A DNA stretch of 26,095 nt from a virus: positions 1 to 26,095 of the IMG/VR virus record IMGVR_UViG_3300037826_000130, one strand, 5' to 3'. Positions 10,246-26,095 of the stretch are shown here, piece after piece. A program made the translations under genes and the position numbers. The notes under the pieces were generated by a model. It had not been told where the DNA came from and ran no database searches. It saw only the letters and a program-made list of their open reading frames with translations. Each line of letters begins with the position of its first letter. Position 1 is the stretch's first letter.

Positions 10246-10280
10246 AAAAAAGCCGCAACCCGAAAGATTCGAGTTACGGC
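10246..10280 (-). terminator. Intrinsic terminator before the structural operon
   Basis: On the minus strand, 10280-10252 folds as a hairpin of 13 pairs (GCCG, AAC and CGAA blocks joined by two T-G pairs) with a 3-nt TCT loop, followed at once by six T (10251-10246). This is a complete Rho-independent terminator for transcripts coming from the terminase, portal and MuF genes. It has no T-run in the opposite direction. It lies 84 nt before the scaffold start, so the structural genes must have another promoter or rely on read-through or antitermination. Confidence 0.85.
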
Positions 10281-10303
10281 CATTGTAGGATGAGGCTCTT
10301 TAA

Positions 10304-12792: not shown

Positions 12793-12987
12793 ATGTCAGG
12801 TCCAAAAATCAAGATCCGCATTACTCCTGAATATCGCCGTTACCTGTGGGAATGGGGAATTCGGACTGGCCAGCTCGCCGGCGCCTTCCAGGACCTTCGG
12901 GAGCACGAGTTGAAAAAAGCCAGAGACCGCGGCATTCCTACTCCTCCGCCCCTAACTGACTCCGCAGACGATCAAAGGCAGGATTAG
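12793..12987 (+). CDS. Possible plus-strand small gene between MuF and portal
   Basis: In the 145-bp gap between the portal stop (12938) and the MuF start (12792), no minus-strand frame looks coding, but the plus strand has a 64-residue frame starting at ATG 12793 with GAGG six bases upstream. It reads as a plausible protein (KIKIRITPEYRRYLWEWG, then GQLAGAFQDLREHELKKARD), helical and basic, and its codon use resembles the neighbours. Its end overlaps the 3' end of the portal gene on the opposite strand. It would be the only plus-strand gene found here. It could also be a chance frame. Confidence 0.45.
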   Translation: MSGPKIKIRITPEYRRYLWEWGIRTGQLAGAFQDLREHELKKARDRGIPTPPPLTDSADDQRQD

Positions 12988-16750: not shown

Positions 16751-17266
16751 TCAACCTCCAATCCCGCAAGCCAACTGCTTCACCTTCTCCCCTGCTTCTA
16801 TCTGCCTGTCAGCAGGGATGGCATCCGGCCGCTTTGCATAGCTCTGGTAGGCTTCGATGAATTCTTTCCTCCACCAGACAACCTCAGCTTCTTTCAGGCT
16901 TGCCGCCCAGGACTTGTATGGCCACCTGTTCTGCATCAGGTAGGCAGTTACCGGATCATCAAACTCCGGTTCTGCCCTGGCGCCGTTTTTTCGCAGAAAG
17001 TCGAGCACGATATCGGATTGCCTCTGAGCCTTGTCTTTTGCGTCGCCGTGTATGTGCTCGATAAATTCTGCATATGTCGGCATCTTGGAAATTTTTCTCG
17101 TGCGCAGTATGCGGCCGGCAGCTTTCCTGATCTGATCGATGTTGATGCCATCCTCGGCAAAAGCCTTGCACCAGATGTTGATCGTATGCTTATCGATTGT
17201 GTCTCCGAAGTTTCCGGCCAAACCGAAAAGGATCGATGCGAGTTGGTTTCTATCTTCCCCGGTCAT
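16751..17266 (-). CDS. Putative phage replication protein, helicase-loader-like
   Basis: This 171-residue protein starts at ATG 17266, overlapping the initiator gene by 4 nt. The N-terminal half is helical (DRNQLASILFGLAGNFG, KHTINIWCKAFAEDGINIDQ) and includes KMPTYAEFIEHIHG; 'MPt.aeF...i.g' is common in small phage replication proteins such as G39P-type helicase loader/inhibitors. The C-terminal part is basic and aromatic (DPVTAYLMQNRWPYKSW, WWRKEFIEAYQSYAKRP). No Walker motif is present, so it is not a DnaC-type ATPase. Position directly after the initiator supports a replication role, but the specific activity is inferred. Confidence 0.5.
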   Translation of the reverse strand: MTGEDRNQLASILFGLAGNFGDTIDKHTINIWCKAFAEDGINIDQIRKAAGRILRTRKISKMPTYAEFIEHIHGDAKDKAQRQSDIVLDFLRKNGARAEPEFDDPVTAYLMQNRWPYKSWAASLKEAEVVWWRKEFIEAYQSYAKRPDAIPADRQIEAGEKVKQLACGIGG

Positions 17267-18141
17267 GCTGTCGCTCCTTCGTTCACGAATTCATGTAACA
17301 CCTGCAGGTTGTGCCGCTGCTTTGGAGTCAGGTGGGGGCCGTCGCGCTTCTGGTTATTCATTTGAGTTGTGATCTTGTTCGCGTGCTTTCTCAGGTTGAC
17401 ACCTGACAGAATCACGCTTGACCAGAAATTGTCTTCAACCGCCCAGGTGATGATCTCCCCTATACGCTCAGGCTCTCGCTTATCGATTCGGATCATGCGG
17501 TCGATCTCAAGCTTCCAGCCGTGAAAGGCTCCGTTTTTCGGTGGAGTGAATTCCGGATTGTTTTCTTTGATCCTGTCGAGAAGGTACGAAGCCAGCTTTT
17601 CAGCCTGTGACCATGTGAGGGGATCGACCGGCTTGAATTCTTCTTGTTCCGGTTTGAAGTCTGGGGGAGGGTTGTCCGAGCCGGGAGGCGAGGTATTATT
17701 TTCTGTTTCTGTTTCTGTTTCTGTTTCTGTTTCTGTTTCGTCGATGGGAATTTCCGAATCCTCGCGAGTCTTTCGCGAGTCTTTCGCGAGTCTTTCGAGA
17801 ATGTCTCCCGGGGGGTCCGGATTTGTTGACCTTGACGGCTTGTCAACTTTTTGATGTTTTTGAAAATTTACAATGTAATAGAACCGCTCTCCATGATGGT
17901 CGTATGGGATGATTGCACCAAGTTTATGCAAGCTCGACAACCACCTCTCGATATCGGCCCGTGTCAAATCTTCGTCATATGGAAAAATATTACTCTTCAG
18001 CCAGAGAGGGTTTCCCTTCACTCGCCCGAAATCGTCGGAACATTTCCACAGCCCCACGAAAAAGAGGCGACAGTCTCGCGAGACACTCGCGAGCTTCTCG
18101 TCATCAAAAAATTCAGGCTTTATCATTCGGCTACGTGCCAT
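17263..18141 (-). CDS. Phage replication initiator (O-like)
   Basis: I chose the ATG at 18141 (MARSRMIKPEFFDDEKLASV), preceded by AGGAGCGAC, over an upstream in-frame codon; the product is 292 residues. The N-terminal 100 residues are a winged-helix DNA-binding domain of the phage initiator type (RLFFVGLWKCSDDFGRVKGN, then PYDEDLTRADIERWLSSLHK and RFYYIVNFQKHQKV). Residues 110-155 form a disordered acidic linker with ETETET repeats. The C-terminal part is a DnaD/O-like domain (WSQAEKLASYLLDRIKENNP, then ITWAVEDNFWSSVILSG). Such proteins bind iterons inside their own gene and recruit the helicase loader; the repeats described separately support this. Confidence 0.8.
   Translation of the reverse strand: MARSRMIKPEFFDDEKLASVSRDCRLFFVGLWKCSDDFGRVKGNPLWLKSNIFPYDEDLTRADIERWLSSLHKLGAIIPYDHHGERFYYIVNFQKHQKVDKPSRSTNPDPPGDILERLAKDSRKTREDSEIPIDETETETETETETENNTSPPGSDNPPPDFKPEQEEFKPVDPLTWSQAEKLASYLLDRIKENNPEFTPPKNGAFHGWKLEIDRMIRIDKREPERIGEIITWAVEDNFWSSVILSGVNLRKHANKITTQMNNQKRDGPHLTPKQRHNLQVLHEFVNEGATA
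17700..17735. repeat. Six tandem TTTCTG hexamers
   Basis: The plus strand has six perfect TTTCTG copies; on the minus strand they encode (Glu-Thr)6 in the linker of the initiator. The hexamer keeps the reading frame, so copy number can change without frameshift. The tract is fully pyrimidine on one strand except for G, and lies close to the iteron-like boxes. It could be a flexible linker, an expansion-prone tract, or part of the origin. Confidence 0.85.
17761..17793. repeat. Iteron-like array, cluster 1 (three boxes, 11-bp period)
   Basis: CTCGCGAGTCT (17761), TTCGCGAGTCT (17772) and TTCGCGAGTCT (17783) are three tandem 11-bp units with an 8-bp palindromic core, followed by a partial fourth. 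Eleven bases do not fit codons, so the initiator reads the three copies in different frames; this suggests the DNA itself is selected. Directly repeated boxes inside an initiator gene are the classic lambda-type origin arrangement. Confidence 0.65.
17825..17880. other. AT-rich segment with inverted repeat, candidate unwinding element
   Basis: GTTGAC at 17825-17830 and GTCAAC at 17842-17847 form a perfect 6-bp inverted repeat, followed by a strongly AT-rich stretch (TTTTTGATGTTTTTGAAAAT and on). It lies between the two clusters of CTCGCGAG-type boxes. In lambda-type origins an AT-rich region next to the iterons is where strands open, so this is the best local candidate. The role is inference. 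Confidence 0.4.
18075..18093. repeat. Iteron-like boxes, cluster 2 (two boxes, 11-bp period)
   Basis: CTCGCGAG occurs at 18075-18082 and again at 18086-18093, so the period is again exactly 11 bp, as in cluster 1 about 290 bp away. These lie near the start of the initiator gene (codons for LASVSRD). The shared core and identical period make chance less likely. Confidence 0.55.
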
Positions 18142-18148
18142 GTCGCTC

Positions 18149-18385
18149 CTATAAAACCATGCTTCCAAGCCACAGCCCGGACAATGCCCCGGCCATGGCC
18201 CCGGATGAATATACAAACCGCTCCGGCCATCCGCCGAAAGCAGCACTTTTGACGTTCATCGTCCAAACAAACGAGATCGCAAAACCACCGACCGCCACGC
18301 CCGGCCAGAATTCTCGCGCGATGAAGTATGTTTGGGCGGAGACAAGAAAAACCTGGAGCCAGCCTCGGAGAAACAGCGATTTCAT
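18149..18385 (-). CDS. Small membrane protein
   Basis: This 78-residue protein starts at the ATG at 18385, overlapping the helicase-methyltransferase stop as ATGA, and its stop sits beside the Shine-Dalgarno of the initiator gene. It has two to three hydrophobic segments (LFLRGWLQVFLVSAQTYFI, WPGVAVGGFAISFVWTM, AMAGALSGLWLGSMVL) and few charges. Similar small, multi-span proteins with an FLVSAxTY.IA start are common in phage early operons; their role is not established. It is not holin-like by context, since no lysin is nearby. Confidence 0.65.
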   Translation of the reverse strand: MKSLFLRGWLQVFLVSAQTYFIAREFWPGVAVGGFAISFVWTMNVKSAAFGGWPERFVYSSGAMAGALSGLWLGSMVL

Positions 18386-20877
18386 GCCGCCACCTCTTCT
18401 TTCTCCAGGTCAAACAACGTCGGCGCCGTCAGGTCCTGCTCCTGGATCTTCAAATACCTGACGCCATCTGCGAAATAATCCGGATTCAGCTCAACCCCTC
18501 GTCCTTTCCTCCCGAGCTTCACCGCCCGGAGCGGAACCGTCATGAGCCCACCGAACGGATCAAAAACGAGATCACCCTCGTTCGAGTACCGGGTGATGAT
18601 GCGGTCCACGATATCGAGCTGCAGGGGGCAGATGTGATTGTTAAGACGCTTTTTTGTCTGCTCGCTGTTGAGCGTGCGCATGCGGTTGACATCGGTCCAG
18701 ACGTCGGGGTGATTAGAGACCGGAGCCAGACTCATGAATGTTGCGGGCAGCGCCCCCTTTGCGTCCAGCTTCTCTCCAAGCTCAACGTGAAGCCCGTAAT
18801 CATAGATGTGCTCCGCATCGTATTTCCGGAAAGCACGATACAGCGTTTCAGCCGAATAGCATGCCATTTCATCCGCGGATAAAAGTCTATCACCGGAGCT
18901 CCGCCAAAAAGCATGGGCGTCAACCTGCCACCTGGCCCGGGTGTACTCGGCCTTGTCTTTGGATACCGGCTCATCGGCGTAGCCCTTAGAGCGGTCCGTC
19001 TGCGGCTTTCGCATGAGCACGATATATTCCGGAGATCCAACCCCCATCTTTGTGCCGTCCTTGCACTGCTCGGACCAGCCAAGCCGATACGTCTGGTTGT
19101 TTTCACGGACGACATCGGTAACCACCGTGATTAAGCCCATGTAATCAAACCCGTGCTTCATGCAGTGGAATATGCACTCGGCATGGAAGGGGGAAACGGT
19201 GGGCGCTCCTTTTCCGGTCACGTTGCCGAACAAGATGCGATCTTTCACATGGCAGGCATAGATCCGGCCGGGCTTTAAAATCCGGTGCAGGTGGGGGGTT
19301 AAGAAGTCCATCTGTTCCCAGAAATGAGCGCTATCGTCCGTGTGGCCGAAGTCGTTGTAGGATGGCGTGTACTCGTAATGGTTTGAAAATGGGATCGAGG
19401 TATGGATCAAGCCGACAGAATTATCTTCCATCGTTTCACATTCAAGCACACAATCGTTATTCGCAACCGTCCAACCCTCGCCGGATTCTTCAACGCGCTC
19501 AATGCCTATCGACCTTCGAAGCTCGCCCTCTCTTTCGATGTGAGAAAGCCCATATTGCTTAATAAGCTCCGTCATTCTTGCGACCATCTTCTCGTGAGCC
19601 GCCCACTTCTCTTTCAGGATTTCCAAAATGCGGCGCTCAGAGTCGGTATAGATCAGGTGGATGTGGCACTCTTTGTCTTGCAGAAAACGGTAGATGCGGT
19701 GAACGGACTGGATGAAATCGTTGAACTTGAATCCGATGCCGAGGAAGATAGCCTTGTGGCAATGACGCTGGAAGTTGCACCCGGATCCGGAAAGGACAGG
19801 CTTTGTGGCAAGGTACTGAAACTTGCCGTTTGAAAAATCAATTATGCGCTGTTCTCGGGTGTCAAGGTCCTGGCTGCCGTATACCTCGCACGCATGCGGA
19901 ATGGCTTTTTTGATAGCATGCCGCTCCGCTTCCTGGTCGTGCCAGAGCAGGTAGTGACTGTCCGGGTCCGCTTGCAGGATTTCCATTGCCTTTTCGATTC
20001 TGGCGGCTATACTTTCCCGCTTCTCCTTCGCCGCCACCTGCAAGCTCGCCGAAGCATCGTTGAAAAGCCCCATCTGGCCATCACGGTCGGGATGAAAGCC
20101 GGTTTCAGACTTCACCTCGTGATAATGAACGTGGAGCTCGGGGAGGAGGTATCCATCATCCGAATAGCCAAGGTCGGACGGCTTCTGCAGGAAAATCGCC
20201 CAGCTGGACACCCAGAGCCAAAACTCGAGCTCTTTGTGTTTGTACAATGTCAAATTGTTCGCCTTCTGGCTGTCCCGCTGAAAAAACCGGGTCAGGGCCT
20301 GGCCGGTATCCATAATGCCGAGAAAACCGGCGTAATGAATCAGTTCTTTATATCGATTCGGCGAAGGCGTTGCCGTAGCCACGAACCGATATTTGACCGA
20401 CTCAAAAAGCGTCAAAAACTCCTGGTACGTCTTCGATCCAAATGACCTGAGCACGGACGCTTCATCGAGCGAAACCGCGTTGAACTCGTTAGGGTCGAGC
20501 CGGCCGTCACGGACCGATTCGTAATTCGTGATGTAGAGGCCGTCACCGGCAATCTCTTCGGTGCGGCGGATGAAGGCCAAGCAGATTTTGAGCTTTTCGG
20601 CATCGGCCCTGAACTCCTGGCGAACACCGAGCGGCATAATGATAAGCTGCCGACCACCTTCACGGGCGCCTATCAGCCTCATCACCTCCAGCTGCATGAA
20701 GGATTTTCCGAGGCCGAACGCCGCAAATATCGCCCTGCGCCCACCGAGGACCGCCCACTGCACTATGTCTTTCTGGTGGGGGAACAAGATCGGGTTGATC
20801 AGGTCCTGTTCGACATGGAAGCCCGTTCGAGTGTCGAGCTTGATTTTTGCTTCGAGGAACTGCTGGTAGGTGCTCAT
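18382..20877 (-). CDS. SNF2-like helicase fused to a DNA methyltransferase
   Basis: This 831-residue protein starts at ATG 20877, overlapping the preceding gene by 4 nt. The N-terminal half is a superfamily 2 ATPase: Walker A-like GLGKS (55-59), LDEAS (137-141) as the DEAH-type motif, TATPSPNRY (168-176), and QSVHRIYRFLQ (390-400) as motif VI. The C-terminal half is a permuted methyltransferase: TSIPF (493-497) in the place of the usual (S/D)PP(Y/F) motif IV, then FDPFGG (772-777) followed by GRKGRGVELNP as motif I and the E of the SAM pocket. Motif I normally continues G.GTT and here reads GLMT, and motif IV has Ile for Pro, so activity may differ. Fused enzymes of this kind may protect phage DNA or couple modification to translocation. 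Confidence 0.85.
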   Translation of the reverse strand: MSTYQQFLEAKIKLDTRTGFHVEQDLINPILFPHQKDIVQWAVLGGRRAIFAAFGLGKSFMQLEVMRLIGAREGGRQLIIMPLGVRQEFRADAEKLKICLAFIRRTEEIAGDGLYITNYESVRDGRLDPNEFNAVSLDEASVLRSFGSKTYQEFLTLFESVKYRFVATATPSPNRYKELIHYAGFLGIMDTGQALTRFFQRDSQKANNLTLYKHKELEFWLWVSSWAIFLQKPSDLGYSDDGYLLPELHVHYHEVKSETGFHPDRDGQMGLFNDASASLQVAAKEKRESIAARIEKAMEILQADPDSHYLLWHDQEAERHAIKKAIPHACEVYGSQDLDTREQRIIDFSNGKFQYLATKPVLSGSGCNFQRHCHKAIFLGIGFKFNDFIQSVHRIYRFLQDKECHIHLIYTDSERRILEILKEKWAAHEKMVARMTELIKQYGLSHIEREGELRRSIGIERVEESGEGWTVANNDCVLECETMEDNSVGLIHTSIPFSNHYEYTPSYNDFGHTDDSAHFWEQMDFLTPHLHRILKPGRIYACHVKDRILFGNVTGKGAPTVSPFHAECIFHCMKHGFDYMGLITVVTDVVRENNQTYRLGWSEQCKDGTKMGVGSPEYIVLMRKPQTDRSKGYADEPVSKDKAEYTRARWQVDAHAFWRSSGDRLLSADEMACYSAETLYRAFRKYDAEHIYDYGLHVELGEKLDAKGALPATFMSLAPVSNHPDVWTDVNRMRTLNSEQTKKRLNNHICPLQLDIVDRIITRYSNEGDLVFDPFGGLMTVPLRAVKLGRKGRGVELNPDYFADGVRYLKIQEQDLTAPTLFDLEKEEVAA

Positions 20878-21686
20878 ATCGCCACCTCCGCAACCAGCAC
20901 ACCGTCAACTTCGCGCACCGGCCACGGCCCCTTGCTGACCGAATACCCTTTCCGGTCCAGAGCCACACTGATGCCGTACCCGCTGCCCCTGTCTTTCTGC
21001 AGCCGGTACTGGCCGGTCATGCCCTTATGGCCAACGAACGCGATCTGGACCGACCCGCCGCCATTTTTTACATACACATCGATCGTTTCACACACGCTCA
21101 GGATCTGCTCGAACTGCCGGCTTGCTTCCGCGTTGAACGCTATGGAGTGCTTTTGGAAATGAACGGAGGGCACGGCGGAACCGCGAGAATTGTTCTTGAT
21201 GAGAGTGAATTCTGACAAGTCGAGATCGGCTTTTTCGACACCTGTGAGGCCGGGCGCCTGGCGGGGAGGAAGGGCGGGGGTGTGTCTTGGTTTTTCCGGT
21301 TTTTCGACAGCCGGAAAGTCACTTGCATCAACGCTTTCCGCCGTTTCTTTGCAATCCGGCCGCTTTTTATTCCACTTTTTATTCCACGGCTCCCCTTCGC
21401 ATTCAATGCAGGTCAGGGCGAAGTGTTTTCGCTTTTTGAAAAATTCCGGAGTGAGCGGTTTTTCATTCTGGCAGACGTTGCACTTCCGAAGAGGGGCAGC
21501 CTCCAGCTCGGCCTTCGTCTGTTTTTTCGCCTCGCTTGAACCCGCAGTGGCCGTGTACAGCCCATACTCCTTCCGAAGCGGACAATCATCCGCACAACCC
21601 TTTGTTCCAGCCGCGACGTTATCCTCGCATTCTTCAGCGGAAACCCGGCGCTTTAATCCGGCACAATAAAACATTCTATTTTTCAT
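20874..21686 (-). CDS. Zinc-ribbon protein of unknown function
   Basis: I chose the ATG at 21686 (MKNRMFYCAGLKRRVSAEEC) with GGAGG upstream; an upstream in-frame TTG runs through the terminator and has no ribosome site. The product has 270 residues. Two Cys clusters are visible: C8, C20, C31, C35, then CNVC (69-72) and CIEC (93-96), spaced as a zinc ribbon like that next to HNH domains, but no HNH is seen. A Pro-rich linker near 130-150 leads to a C-terminal beta domain (IDVYVKNGGGSVQIAFVG, GQYRLQKDRGSGYGISVAL). It ends overlapping the helicase-methyltransferase start, so the two are translationally coupled and may act together. The family is not recognised. Confidence 0.75.
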   Translation of the reverse strand: MKNRMFYCAGLKRRVSAEECEDNVAAGTKGCADDCPLRKEYGLYTATAGSSEAKKQTKAELEAAPLRKCNVCQNEKPLTPEFFKKRKHFALTCIECEGEPWNKKWNKKRPDCKETAESVDASDFPAVEKPEKPRHTPALPPRQAPGLTGVEKADLDLSEFTLIKNNSRGSAVPSVHFQKHSIAFNAEASRQFEQILSVCETIDVYVKNGGGSVQIAFVGHKGMTGQYRLQKDRGSGYGISVALDRKGYSVSKGPWPVREVDGVLVAEVAI

Positions 21687-21692
21687 GGCTTT

Positions 21693-21707
21693 CCTCCAGG
21701 AAGGAGG
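21693..21707 (-). promoter_or_regulatory. Shine-Dalgarno-hiding hairpin
   Basis: The minus strand reads CCTCC TTCCT GGAGG, a perfect 5-bp stem with a 5-nt loop. The GGAGG arm is the ribosome binding site of the zinc-ribbon gene (ATG at 21686). While paired, it would lower initiation. Confidence 0.6.
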
Positions 21708-21708
21708 G

Positions 21709-21865
21709 ATAAGCAAGCGCCGGGCAGGACATAAAAAAAGCCCGAAATCCGCGATTGGTGCGGACTCCGGGCTTTCCAGGAGGAAGACGCAGAAAAAGGG
21801 TTTGACCTGTGCAGTCAATCCCTGATCTGAAATTTACTTCGTATGTCCTGCCCAACGTTGCTTAT
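21709..21865. repeat. Long imperfect inverted repeat around the terminator
   Basis: ATAAGCAA and GGGCAGGACATA at 21709-21733 recur as the reverse complement at 21842-21865, with five and four unmatched bases between blocks. The repeat encloses 108 bp that contain the terminator and a TTGAC/GTCAA dyad (21802-21818). It could be the base of a leader fold or the ends of a tiny mobile element. No flanking target duplication is visible. Confidence 0.75.
21733..21774 (-). terminator. Intrinsic terminator inside the leader
   Basis: On the minus strand, 21774-21760 pairs with 21752-21738 (AGCCCG and GTCCGC blocks with a short mismatch, loop of about 7), followed by seven T (21739-21733). It is a complete Rho-independent terminator 47 nt upstream of the zinc-ribbon start, so this gene can be expressed only by read-through from the promoter at about 21940. 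Confidence 0.85.
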
Positions 21866-21927
21866 TCCCCGCGTTGGGCTTCGGGGAAGGGTTGAGAGCC
21901 AAGGGCTCTCCGGGTGTGGGTGCCTTT

Positions 21928-21957
21928 ACCCTAAAAGATCGATTCCACGACTGTCAA
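21928..21957 (-). promoter_or_regulatory. Sigma70-type promoter
   Basis: The minus strand has a consensus -35 TTGACA (21957-21952) and, after 18 bp, TAGGGT (21933-21928), which keeps the key T, A and final T of a -10 box. An AT-rich stretch (GAAAAATTTCC) lies just upstream of the -35. Transcription would start near 21921 and enter the structured leader. It is the best promoter found in the window. Confidence 0.65.
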
Positions 21958-22050
21958 GGGAAATTTTTCGTTAAGACTTTCGCAGAAAGGGCTTTTACGA
22001 TGCCACCAATACTTCCGAAACCTTGTCAGTGCCGCTATTACCTTTCCCAT
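21931..22050 (-). CDS. Possible 39-residue peptide
   Basis: A minus-strand frame from ATG 22050 to TAG 21931 has a good ribosome site (AAAGGGGGTGTT) directly in front and lies 25 nt after the stop of the HTH-HhH gene. The product is basic and aromatic (MGKVIAALTRFRKYWWHRK) and then acidic. Against it: its 3' end contains the -35 and -10 of the promoter, and it has no recognised family. Confidence 0.4.
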   Translation of the reverse strand: MGKVIAALTRFRKYWWHRKSPFCESLNEKFPLTVVESIF

Positions 22051-22075: not shown

Positions 22076-22492
22076 TTAATTCAACCACCTCTTCCCATAC
22101 ATCTCAGCCTTTATCTGCTCCACATCAATAGCCTCATAGCCGGCCTCGATAAGGCCCTGGACGAAGTCTTTCAAGCGCTTGTTCCCTATCCCAGGGAACA
22201 GCATCACCTTTTTCACCACTTCAGGCGCCCGCAGCTTCTCCGGATCTTCAAGGATCTCCTCGCCAAAATTCACAGAGGCTGCTTTCAAGATTTTCTTTGA
22301 GATATACTCGACGATGGGGTAATGGAAGGATAGTTCTCTTAATCGGCACTCCTGCACATAGATTATGCGCACCGTTTGATAGTCCATTCCCATCTCGCGG
22401 GCTATCGCAGCGAAGCTCTTGCCCTGGGACCTGAGCTTGTAGATGGTTTCGGCTTGGCGCCTGGTTTGTTCGGATTGATGAGGTGGTGGCAT
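22076..22492 (-). CDS. DNA-binding protein: HTH plus alpha-CTD-like helix-hairpin-helix
   Basis: This 138-residue protein starts at ATG 22492 with GGAAGG seven bases upstream. Residues 12-48 form a helix-turn-helix (AETIYKLRSQGKSFAAIARE, then MGMDYQTVRIIYVQECR) like resolvase or sigma-type recognition domains. After a helical middle, residues 83-125 resemble the RNA polymerase alpha C-terminal domain or another helix-hairpin-helix: EKLRAPEVVKKVMLFPGIG, KRLKDFVQGLIEAGYEAI. The combination of a specific HTH with an alpha-CTD-like or HhH module is unusual. It is a candidate early regulator of the promoter just downstream. Family not recognised. Confidence 0.65.
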   Translation of the reverse strand: MPPPHQSEQTRRQAETIYKLRSQGKSFAAIAREMGMDYQTVRIIYVQECRLRELSFHYPIVEYISKKILKAASVNFGEEILEDPEKLRAPEVVKKVMLFPGIGNKRLKDFVQGLIEAGYEAIDVEQIKAEMYGKRWLN

Positions 22493-23339: not shown

Positions 23340-23354
23340 GAGTCAGATTGACTC
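23340..23354. repeat. Small perfect inverted repeat
   Basis: GAGTCA, a 3-nt spacer and TGACTC at 23340-23354 overlap the end of the GIY-YIG-type gene. No U-run follows on the minus strand, so it is not a terminator; an operator or RNA stability role is possible. Confidence 0.4.
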
Positions 23355-23958
23355 AAAGGCTCTCTTCATATTCGAAATCAATTGCATCATCTTCAAAATC
23401 ATCAGGGAATACTTGACTTCCTTCATCTATCAATCGATAAACCTCTACTGCCCCATCAATGCGGCTTTCTTCTAAATTAAAAAACTCCCTGGCGATTCGA
23501 AAGTCCTTGAAATATGTGTGTAGCTCTTTCTCAATCAAATCATAATATCTGCTACGCAGCCACCTATAGACCTCAAACTTGCCCTTTTCCCTGGCTTCAA
23601 CTGAAGGCAAATATTGTTCTGGGTGCGTTGAAGTTCGGCCTATCTTAAAGATTGACGGTTCATTAATTAATCGAAAAAAATATACATACCCTGTATTAGG
23701 TTCCGAATACCTCAACCCTATATGCTTATAGGCAACCCACTCTTCCCAAAGCTCACAAAGAGCTTTCAAGAGTTGAGCTTTATTTTGCATAGAGGGCGAG
23801 AGGAAATCGAAGTGTCCCAACAAGGTTTCTGATTCTATTTCGTCAGTTCCTCTGAATTGAGGGTAATATGGCAGAGCATCTACGATGCATCGAAAATCTA
23901 TGGCGAAATCATTATCTTTTTGATTTTTGATGAAGGATGTGAACTTCAATTTGCTCAT
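23353..23958 (-). CDS. GIY-YIG/T5orf172-type protein
   Basis: I chose the ATG at 23958 (MSKLKFTSFI), preceded by AAAAAGGAGCGTAAGT, over one 24 nt upstream; the product has 201 residues. Residues 89-165 carry the T5orf172/MUG113 form of the GIY-YIG nuclease: GYVYFFRLINEPSIFKIGRT as the paired GIY-YIG strands, an Arg/Glu helix (YYDLIEKELHTYFKDFR) and REFFNL at the end. The first 75 residues are a helical domain (QNKAQLLKALCELWEEW) of unknown type. These proteins are common in phages, plasmids and islands; activity ranges from homing or nicking nuclease to unknown. The C-terminus is very acidic (FPDDFEDDAIDFEYEE). Confidence 0.8.
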   Translation of the reverse strand: MSKLKFTSFIKNQKDNDFAIDFRCIVDALPYYPQFRGTDEIESETLLGHFDFLSPSMQNKAQLLKALCELWEEWVAYKHIGLRYSEPNTGYVYFFRLINEPSIFKIGRTSTHPEQYLPSVEAREKGKFEVYRWLRSRYYDLIEKELHTYFKDFRIAREFFNLEESRIDGAVEVYRLIDEGSQVFPDDFEDDAIDFEYEESL

Positions 23959-24089
23959 ATACTTACGCTCCTTTTTACCCACTCCAAACCCACAAGCTAT
24001 CCCTTCCGGTTTTTGAGACTACCACAAACAAATTTTGCATCGAATCCTTTTGGTTCGCTGAGACGGTAAAAGGGCATAAAGCAGTATTC

Positions 24090-24794
24090 CTATATGATCT
24101 TCTTCCCTAATTCTTTCCAAAACTCTGTAATTGTATTAGCATATGCCACAATATCTCCCTTCTGAACGTAAATGTCATCCCCCAATAATGGTGTGAATAC
24201 CGAATGAGAAGGCTTGCTTTCAAAAATACCGCATAGTTCTTTTATCGATGGGGACTGAAAAAGGTCTGGTCTCTTTTTGAAGAGCTTCGCCGATGATACA
24301 CCCTGCCCATGTTTTATTGTATTCACTAAGCAGCGCAGCTCTTCTATTTTGTTCCAAATTGGGAACTTTTCTATATCAATGCCATGCTTTTGCAGTCTTT
24401 TTTTGATCTCCAGTAAGCATAAAAGATTCTTCTCATTTTCCTCCTGTGGGCTCAACAACTCCTTCCGGTGGAAAAGCATCAAATGCTGTTCAAAGCAATG
24501 GTAGAGCATGACAACGGCTACGTTGCAAAGGCCCTGCTTAAATTCGATCATTGAAGAAAAATAATTAATGCCAGCCTCGTGCGCATTTTCAGCAAAAATA
24601 GAGGGGTCAGCATCGCCTTCGGGATCAGCACGGGAGCAAAACTCATTGTAGATTTTCTTAGCATACTTTTCTGCTTCCTCATCAATCGAATTAAATGAGG
24701 GCAGCAATCGATTTAAGAATGTAGAAGCAATCCTCTCATTAGCGGGTATAAACTCTATCTCGAATTGATTCTGCCAAAACAAACCATTATGCAT
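24090..24794 (-). CDS. HEPN-like protein
   Basis: This protein of about 234 residues starts at ATG 24794, which shares one base with the nuclease stop (TGATG); a GTG at 24797 is the alternative. GAGGGG lies just upstream. It is almost fully helical: IFAENAHEAGINYFSSMIEF, VVMLYHCFEQHLMLFHRKEL, LLEIKKRLQKHGIDIEKF, and RCLVNTIKHGQGVSSAKL. The last stretch, Arg, six or seven residues, then KHG with a preceding Asn, is like the catalytic motif in HEPN-type ribonucleases or their structural relatives; the FEQHLMLFHR helix fits the first HEPN helix. It has no Cys-rich or membrane segment. The HEPN reading is suggestive, not proven. Confidence 0.65.
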   Translation of the reverse strand: MHNGLFWQNQFEIEFIPANERIASTFLNRLLPSFNSIDEEAEKYAKKIYNEFCSRADPEGDADPSIFAENAHEAGINYFSSMIEFKQGLCNVAVVMLYHCFEQHLMLFHRKELLSPQEENEKNLLCLLEIKKRLQKHGIDIEKFPIWNKIEELRCLVNTIKHGQGVSSAKLFKKRPDLFQSPSIKELCGIFESKPSHSVFTPLLGDDIYVQKGDIVAYANTITEFWKELGKKII

Positions 24795-25450
24795 CACGGC
24801 AACCCCTCACAAGCCACCCCATCACCATCACCATCCAACCGATGAGGATCCCCGGGCCCTTGCGAATCAAAAAACCGCTGAGCCTCTGCCTGCGTACTGA
24901 AATCGCTGCAGTCTTTGTCGGCGATCTTGGTTGAGCTGGCTGAGCGCCCTCCCCTCTTCTTTCCTCCTCCATGGCGCCAGTCCCAGGGTGGTATCGGATT
25001 GGATGATTCCCATAAGCCGGCGCCGGCTTGCTTGGCCTGGCGCTCCAGCCGCCGCCATTTACCGCATATCCGCTTATGGCAGTACCGATCATATACCCAA
25101 GCATAGCCGTTCATGATCAATGCCTCATTCAGGATCTTGCCATCCACATATATCAACCCGATCACACGGCCGTACCGATCCTGGCCAGCTGGCTCCACAT
25201 TGATGGTTTTGCCGCGGCACATTCGCTGGACAAAGCGCTTGGCTTTTATGCCGTATGGTTGGTCTTTCTCGGGGCAATCGATGCCGTAAAAGCGGATGTC
25301 GAGTTCTCGGCCTTTGCGGTTAACTTCGATTGTGTCGCCATCGTGGACGCGGTCGACGGTGGTTTGGAAGGCGAAGGAAAGAGAGGGGAAAAGAAGGAAA
25401 GCAATGAAGAAAAATAAACAACAGTACTTAATGGGGGATGATCTTGGCAT
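24794..25450 (-). CDS. Secreted SNase-like nuclease with C-terminal Excalibur domain
   Basis: This 218-residue protein starts at ATG 25450. Residues 1-28 are a signal peptide ([20 protein letters not shown]). The thermonuclease core follows: [22 protein letters not shown] (R53 and E61) and DRYGR (R95), corresponding to the R-E-R catalytic set and the calcium Asp residues of staphylococcal nuclease. [18 protein letters not shown] and [20 protein letters not shown] are also typical. Residues 180-218 are an Excalibur calcium-binding domain ([16 protein letters not shown], then [13 protein letters not shown]). Its end overlaps the HEPN-like gene, so the two are likely co-translated. Its proposed place is the periplasm or outside. 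Confidence 0.93.
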
Positions 25451-25486
25451 TGAATAAAATAGCGAACACTTCTGAACATGAAAGGT

Positions 25487-26095
25487 TCAAGATAACTTCT
25501 TGGACTCGATAGAAACCGATGTGATTTGATACTGGAAGGCTTCTACCGCTTTTAGCCTCTTATCATCAAATATAACATAGTTATTGCCATCAGAGATTGA
25601 GCTTTTAAATATTATTCCATGGTATCCTGTGTGCTTTAACAGTTCACAGAGGTATTGAGTTGGCAAATATTCAATGTTTGCTTCTCGTGGGATTACTGGT
25701 TTCGACAGTTCATTCCCGAGCAAGGTTAGATAGGGCATGTTTTTGTATAATAACTCTATCTCATTTTCATCGTTCAATGCAAAAGGACTAATAGTATTAA
25801 TCGGCTCTCGCAAATCCACTAATTCAAGTTTTCTGCTTATTTGAAATTCAGCAACCGTAACACTCTCACCCTTATGCCCCCTTATTTCTGAAATGGCCGT
25901 TTCAATCGTAGAAGCGACATAAAGATAAGGAATTCCATGGGGATTAGCCCGTCCGTTTGTTGCCACTTTCTGAGGAGGTTTTTTCATTTTTGAAAGTGGG
26001 TATGGTTTATCAGAAGCATTAATCCTTGCCCTATAAAACTTTTGCGTTCGGGGATGCAAAATCGTACCTAAATGTTTCCCGAAAGGTTCTATGCT
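25487..26095 (-). CDS. RES-domain protein, N-terminus beyond window
   Basis: The frame is open to the end of the window (203 codons), so the start is not seen; the first Met-like codon (TTG at 26059) is probably internal. The sequence shows the RES family pattern: FYRARI, PPQKVATNGRANPHGIPYLY, ASTIETAISEIRGHKGESVT as the conserved Arg/Tyr/Glu core, and YLPTQYLCELLKHTGYHGII toward the end, where 'YlpTQ...e....gydGi.y.Ss' is characteristic. RES proteins degrade NAD+ and often act as toxins with an Xre-type antitoxin gene upstream; that region is outside the window. It is 36 bp from the nuclease gene. AT-rich composition points to acquired DNA. Confidence 0.85.
   Translation of the reverse strand, partial: SIEPFGKHLGTILHPRTQKFYRARINASDKPYPLSKMKKPPQKVATNGRANPHGIPYLYVASTIETAISEIRGHKGESVTVAEFQISRKLELVDLREPINTISPFALNDENEIELLYKNMPYLTLLGNELSKPVIPREANIEYLPTQYLCELLKHTGYHGIIFKSSISDGNNYVIFDDKRLKAVEAFQYQITSVSIESKKLS

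Follow-up and report, generated by a model that had tools for sequence, protein, structure and literature searches.

In phage lambda, the pR'-6S RNA-tR' unit gives a constitutive short transcript of about 190 nt that ends at a terminator before an operon, and the unit is read by protein Q bound to DNA. 6S RNA is not known to need a conserved fold, whereas in the leader described here the RNA fold is what is conserved. A prophage module consisting of promoter, small RNA (sRNA), terminator and read-through, with mutually exclusive folds and with short and long RNA forms, is found at the IsrK locus of Gifsy-1, where some transcripts continue past the sRNA terminator and the central part of the sRNA either folds into a local hairpin or base-pairs with what follows the terminator (PMC4825925). 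In P4, pairing of the CI RNA with an upstream sequence, seqA, and a downstream one, seqC, halts transcription into the replication genes (PMC4825925). In HK022, early transcripts begin with the structured RNA put, which acts in cis on terminators (PMC9378689), as the leader may also do.

We regard the leader as a new family whose way of working resembles that of known prophage leader RNAs but which is a member of none of them, because it has no Rfam match, the IsrK and C4 models are negative, the architecture of put is different, and the probe sequences are all absent from the literature searched. The Rfam search found no family for the window (defined below) or for the homologous copy in a second phage, L114. 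The model of IsrK from the Salmonella prophage Gifsy-1 (RF01394) had no match in the window and reached 12.7 bits in L114, against a cut-off of 50, and the C4 model (RF01695) had no match at an E-value of 10 in either record. The leader resembles IsrK in that a strand can pair either locally or behind its own terminator, as found here in computed folds. It differs in lacking a sequence match to RF01394 beyond chance, in containing a pseudoknot, in holding its Shine-Dalgarno sequence in the same state in both folds, and in preceding replication genes, whereas the targets of the IsrK locus are orf45/anrP translation and a Q-like antiterminator. As in the immunity leaders P4 CI RNA and the C4 RNA of P1 and P7, a middle strand is complementary to sequences both upstream and downstream, and a terminator stands before replication genes; the complementary strands around the leader terminator are GCCCAACG, CGUUGGGC and GCCCGGCG. 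In contrast to these RNAs, the leader is not matched by RF01695 in either record and its strands lie in one compact fold, and the L114 phage also has protein repressor genes. The element put has about 70 nt and two stem-loops and binds RNA polymerase, whereas the leader is composed of a hairpin, a pseudoknot and a closing helix that is absent from put.

The leader lies on the minus strand (21957-21687) of a 26,095-base virus record that belongs to a tailed phage according to its annotated genes; the whole record is referred to here as the window. The minus strand carries genes for the tape measure, capsid, portal, terminase, Holliday junction resolvase, O-like initiator and helicase-methyltransferase. 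The leader is flanked by an HTH gene (22076-22492) and by the gene of a Cys-rich protein, which is followed in order by the helicase-methyltransferase, O-like initiator, phrog_10105, resolvase and terminase genes. The features are collected in Table 1.

Table 1. Positions of the leader elements and of the genes downstream in the window.
Feature	Position	Strand	Remarks
Putative promoter TTGACA-N18-TAGGGT	21928..21957	-	TTGACA and the preceding TTTCC kept in L114
Predicted terminated RNA, about 189 nt	21734..21922	-	Start inferred from the promoter and from the onset of conservation
Hairpin 1, 7 bp	21894..21910	-	Three compensatory pairs relative to L114
Pseudoknot stem 1, UUCCCCG (21888-21882) with CGGGGAA (21871-21865)	21865..21888	-	
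Pseudoknot stem 2, GCCCAACG (21879-21872) with CGUUGGGC (21857-21850)	21850..21879	-	Identical in L114
5' arm of the read-through closing helix	21842..21865	-	Overlaps pseudoknot loop 3 and stem 2
Hairpin 2 (AGGGAUUGAC...GUCAAACCCU)	21797..21823	-	Loop 12 nt larger in L114
12-nt block TTTTCTGCGTCT	21785..21796	-	Identical in both members
Intrinsic terminator, 14-17 bp hairpin and U run	21733..21776	-	
3' arm of the closing helix, behind the terminator	21709..21733	-	Conserved in L114, bulge lost there
CCUCC/GGAGG hairpin over the Shine-Dalgarno sequence	21693..21707	-	Not conserved in L114
Downstream (zinc-ribbon) gene, 270-aa Cys-rich protein	20874..21686	-	Close relatives looked for, none found
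Helicase-methyltransferase gene	18382..20877	-	
O-like replication initiation gene	17263..18246	-	L114 likewise has one downstream of the element
phrog_10105 gene	16751..17266	-	In L114, a copy with 56% identity lies downstream of the element

The leader (21926-21680) folds at -120.6 kcal/mol, with a z-score of -9.0 (none of 200 shuffled sequences was as low), and ranks first in stability relative to GC content among 518 minus-strand windows; with the terminator masked, its z-score is still -7.3. The fold includes an H-type pseudoknot made of stem 1 (UUCCCCG/CGGGGAA), the loop AA, stem 2 (GCCCAACG/CGUUGGGC) and the third loop UAAGCAA, with 15 Watson-Crick pairs in total. No better pseudoknot of this geometry exists on either strand of the window, and none of 100 Markov genomes reaches 15 pairs, the best being 14, which occurred once. 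A sequence-only reading of the window had noticed two mutually exclusive stems that share GCCC at 21850-21853; these are real, and one of them is stem 2, that is, half of the pseudoknot. The same reading had described a 7-bp hairpin, which is located at 21910-21894 (-), and a complete intrinsic terminator, which at 21776-21733 has a stem of -28.9 kcal/mol followed by a U run and is the strongest intrinsic terminator of the window. Its proposal of CCTCC/GGAGG pairing over the ribosome site stands as far as the pairing is concerned, and the Shine-Dalgarno sequence is hidden in every computed fold when CCTCC is free to pair. Switching of the Shine-Dalgarno sequence was nevertheless dropped as a candidate, because it is sequestered in both folds and the pairing is absent from L114.

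The long inverted repeat around the terminator, for which 20 matched pairs had been counted, is larger than proposed: the closing helix joins 21865-21842 with 21709-21733 in 24 pairs, two of them G-U, with one bulge (21717). The case does not rest on this helix, because neither its longest unbroken run (16), which by itself is not rare genome-wide, nor its duplex energy is rare in the window; at the local level it does stand out, as the z-score of -7.3 with the terminator masked shows. The presence elsewhere in the window of long helices with similar duplex energy would suit a plain strong terminator surrounded by chance pairing, with no regulatory RNA. That explanation is barely credible, since it is contradicted by the homologue in L114, with its conservation, its compensatory changes and its position in an unrelated phage, and by the fold z-scores of both copies (-9.0 in the window and -10.3 in L114).

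The putative promoter, read from the sequence as TTGACA, 18 bp and TAGGGT, is present at 21957-21928 (-) and is backed by its conservation in L114, not by its rarity. It is the sole TTGACA-N16-18-TANNNT in the window, where 0.31 are expected by chance, and such a box is present in 26 of 100 shuffled sequences; on its own, the promoter box is within chance. Its -10 box matches the consensus at only three of six positions. Sequence comparison places TTGACA and the preceding TTTCC in L114 likewise 29 nt before CACCC, and this equal distance supports the promoter.

The homologue was found by scanning IMG/VR with the pattern GAAGCCCAACGCGGGGAAT, which was derived from the pseudoknot; one contig matched, the 63.8-kb record of the unrelated phage L114. 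Its element has the same order of parts and the same predicted fold as the leader of the window. A covariance model made from the window alone, and built before L114 was known, scores it at an E-value of 1.7e-22. When the whole window was compared with the L114 record by blastn, the only match was 21707-21922 (72.6% identity, E 2e-30), whose limits coincide with the base at which transcription is predicted to begin (21922) and with the outermost pairs of the closing helix (21707). In hairpin 1, three of the seven pairs are changed on both sides and the stem is retained; thus, compensatory pairs are present in the sole homologue found, where the sequence-only reading had asked for covariation. 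The pseudoknot core and most of the 5' arm give no covariation because they are identical in the two members. In L114, the arm behind the terminator shows a C-to-U change that turns G-C into G-U, the loss of the bulged base and changes at its ends, and one pair of the terminator stem is disrupted. A coding function is disfavoured by the one-base indels and by the stop codons in the reading frames.

The two copies occupy the same slot at the head of the replication operon. In L114, the element is placed between a divergent gene pair, one of which encodes an XRE-type regulator, and an operon with an 82-aa ORF, an O-like initiator, phrog_10105, a Holliday junction resolvase and an epsilon15-like terminase; a second repressor gene, of the S24 type, lies farther off in the record. 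Besides the slot, the phages have in common the phrog_10105 protein (56% identity) and an HTH protein (37%, encoded at another place in the L114 record), and their virion genes and the first gene after the RNA differ. The phrog_10105 protein (16751-17266, -), which is of unknown function and is encoded 3' of the RNA in both phages, is a candidate partner. Because the next genes differ between the copies, the leader is not specific to the zinc-ribbon gene, and the proposal of a switch dedicated to the zinc-ribbon/helicase-methyltransferase operon fails on the L114 copy, which precedes a different gene.

We regard it as almost certain that the leader RNA forms a family. Since the RNA recurs at the corresponding place in an unrelated phage, the element is probably an undescribed family of phage gene-control RNAs that is absent from Rfam, although it is known from two members only, both of them uncultivated phages. 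A structured RNA family would thus be added to the control region of phage replication genes, and an exact pseudoknot, along with an alternative fold that depends on read-through, can be preserved in a leader shared by two phages whose DNA is otherwise unrelated. The near-perfect inverted repeats of the arms, in two phages whose DNA is otherwise unrelated, might instead be the terminal repeats of a DNA element such as a miniature inverted-repeat insertion (MITE). This origin is highly improbable, because conservation is not confined to the arms and reaches well past them, taking in hairpin 1, position 21922 and the TTGACA box, each record holds one copy, and the wobble pairs suit an RNA of the minus strand. 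Searches with terminal-repeat patterns of the arms gave no repeated copies, although these patterns were narrow, all requiring GGACAT or GGACATA, and would also miss L114; the arm pattern had 7 matches in 84,980 genomes, which is near chance.

The arm behind the terminator is conserved despite lying outside the terminated RNA, and computation indicates that it can pair with the second strand of the pseudoknot. This exclusive partner exists only after read-through because it is encoded downstream of the terminator, and its conservation suggests that read-through RNA, or pairing with read-through RNA, matters. The computed energies, in which the pseudoknot penalty is fixed at 9.6 and is rough, favour the pseudoknot in terminated RNA (-84.1 versus -78.2 kcal/mol in the window; -93.9 versus -90.2 kcal/mol in L114) and the closing helix in read-through RNA (-115.7 versus -103.8 and -132.6 versus -120.8 kcal/mol, respectively). 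The expectation of a structured transcript from promoter to terminator with mutually exclusive folds is supported, and refolding that depends on read-through is fairly likely.

In the best explanation as a whole, which in our judgement has about as much for it as against it, the locus is a promoter-sRNA-terminator module whose terminated RNA retains the pseudoknot and whose read-through RNA refolds into the long helix, so that the two RNA forms differ in fold. Most transcripts from the dedicated promoter would stop at the terminator, giving an RNA of about 189 nt whose pseudoknot is intact. When the polymerase reads through, the arm behind the terminator would emerge and displace a strand of the pseudoknot, and the 24-bp helix would lock around the terminator. 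The terminator would gate entry into the replication operon, and such gating is the best functional reading, although we put it at an even chance. The pseudoknot RNA would influence this gate in one of two ways: in cis, through the polymerase during elongation, or in trans, by base-pairing to read-through leaders, for which IsrK of Gifsy-1 and P4 CI RNA are precedents. The 24-bp helix of the read-through RNA may also be a natural RNase III site. If true, this mechanism would be a compact case of an RNA fold decided by terminator read-through. More tentatively, and with less probability than the gating itself, the leader might represent a new class in which passing the terminator is the switch and the nascent pseudoknot is the working form, destroyed by strand displacement from the arm behind the terminator; the RNA would then record whether the polymerase terminated or entered the replication operon.

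The terminator could also be handled in other ways. Neither exclusive stem competes with the terminator hairpin, and the leader is therefore not an attenuator in the usual sense; the attenuation switch that had been suggested finds no support, as the candidate antiterminator pairings (about -15.7 and -15.2 kcal/mol) are far weaker than the terminator arms (-28.0 kcal/mol). The structure starts at the predicted transcription start and precedes a long co-oriented operon with weaker terminator-like sites farther down (10281-10251 and 12957-12918). The nascent pseudoknot might thus bind RNA polymerase and make it resist the leader terminator and later terminators of the replication and late operons, as the ~70-nt put element of HK022 overcomes intrinsic terminators in cis (PMC9378689). 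Such processive antitermination is unlikely, because put has two stem-loops and not a pseudoknot with a strong terminator right after it, the Rfam search gave no match, and the conserved arm behind the terminator would be left unexplained.

An identical pseudoknot core with an A-rich third loop in two phages could also be expected of a ligand-binding riboswitch whose H-type pseudoknot aptamer controls the terminator. We consider this very unlikely: no pairing was found in which aptamer and terminator exclude each other, and riboswitches are, to our knowledge, not expected before phage replication genes. The known riboswitch aptamer models of Rfam match neither copy, in agreement with the impression from sequence that the leader does not look like a common riboswitch class. 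The promoter-like box and strong terminator of the leader, its conserved single-stranded ACCCACACCC and TTTTCTGCGTCT blocks and the difference in downstream genes would all fit a stand-alone phage sRNA that acts in trans on targets elsewhere, in host or phage, and whose place before replication genes is incidental. That possibility is unlikely, since what follows the terminator shows conservation and complementarity as well, and since both copies head the replication operon. Retron and self-splicing readings were dropped because the annotated neighbours include no reverse transcriptase and the known models do not match.

Searches for further relatives were carried out at several levels. None was found through the zinc-ribbon, HTH and 251-aa proteins, and the relatives found through the helicase and capsid, which were checked by DNA, zinc-ribbon homologues, inverted repeats and RNA models, are phages without the leader. 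Comparison by blastn with phages, plasmids and E. coli genomes gave nothing above chance. The core model had no match in 398 Bacillota, 50 Atribacterota, 392 Planctomycetota and 395 Bacteroidota genomes, and these empty samples say little, as the host may belong to another phylum. The A4 pair count was left out, four of its six rows being reverse-strand or chance matches.

Several other features of the two records were observed. In the window, a 39-aa ORF (21931-22050, -), which has a GGGGG box resembling a Shine-Dalgarno sequence (MGKVIAALTRFRKYWWHRKSPFCESLNEKFPLTVVESIF), runs over the TTGACA box and stops just 5' of the RNA; no such ORF was seen upstream of the L114 element. The L114 phage record contains a DUF3800-VIII RNA (RF03075) above the gathering score (L120, 7152-7218, +) and a 2449-aa ORF (L117, 12438-19787, -). 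Within the O-like initiator gene of the window, tandem repeats at 17700-17805 (TCGCGAGTCTT four times, and TTTCTG repeats) could be origin iterons as in lambda. More terminator-like hairpins with U runs lie in the late operon (10251-10281 and 12918-12957, -) and are possible targets of antitermination. The accessory genes at 23353-26059 (-) include one of GIY-YIG type (MUG113/T5orf172), a staphylococcal nuclease gene with an Excalibur domain and a RES-domain gene.
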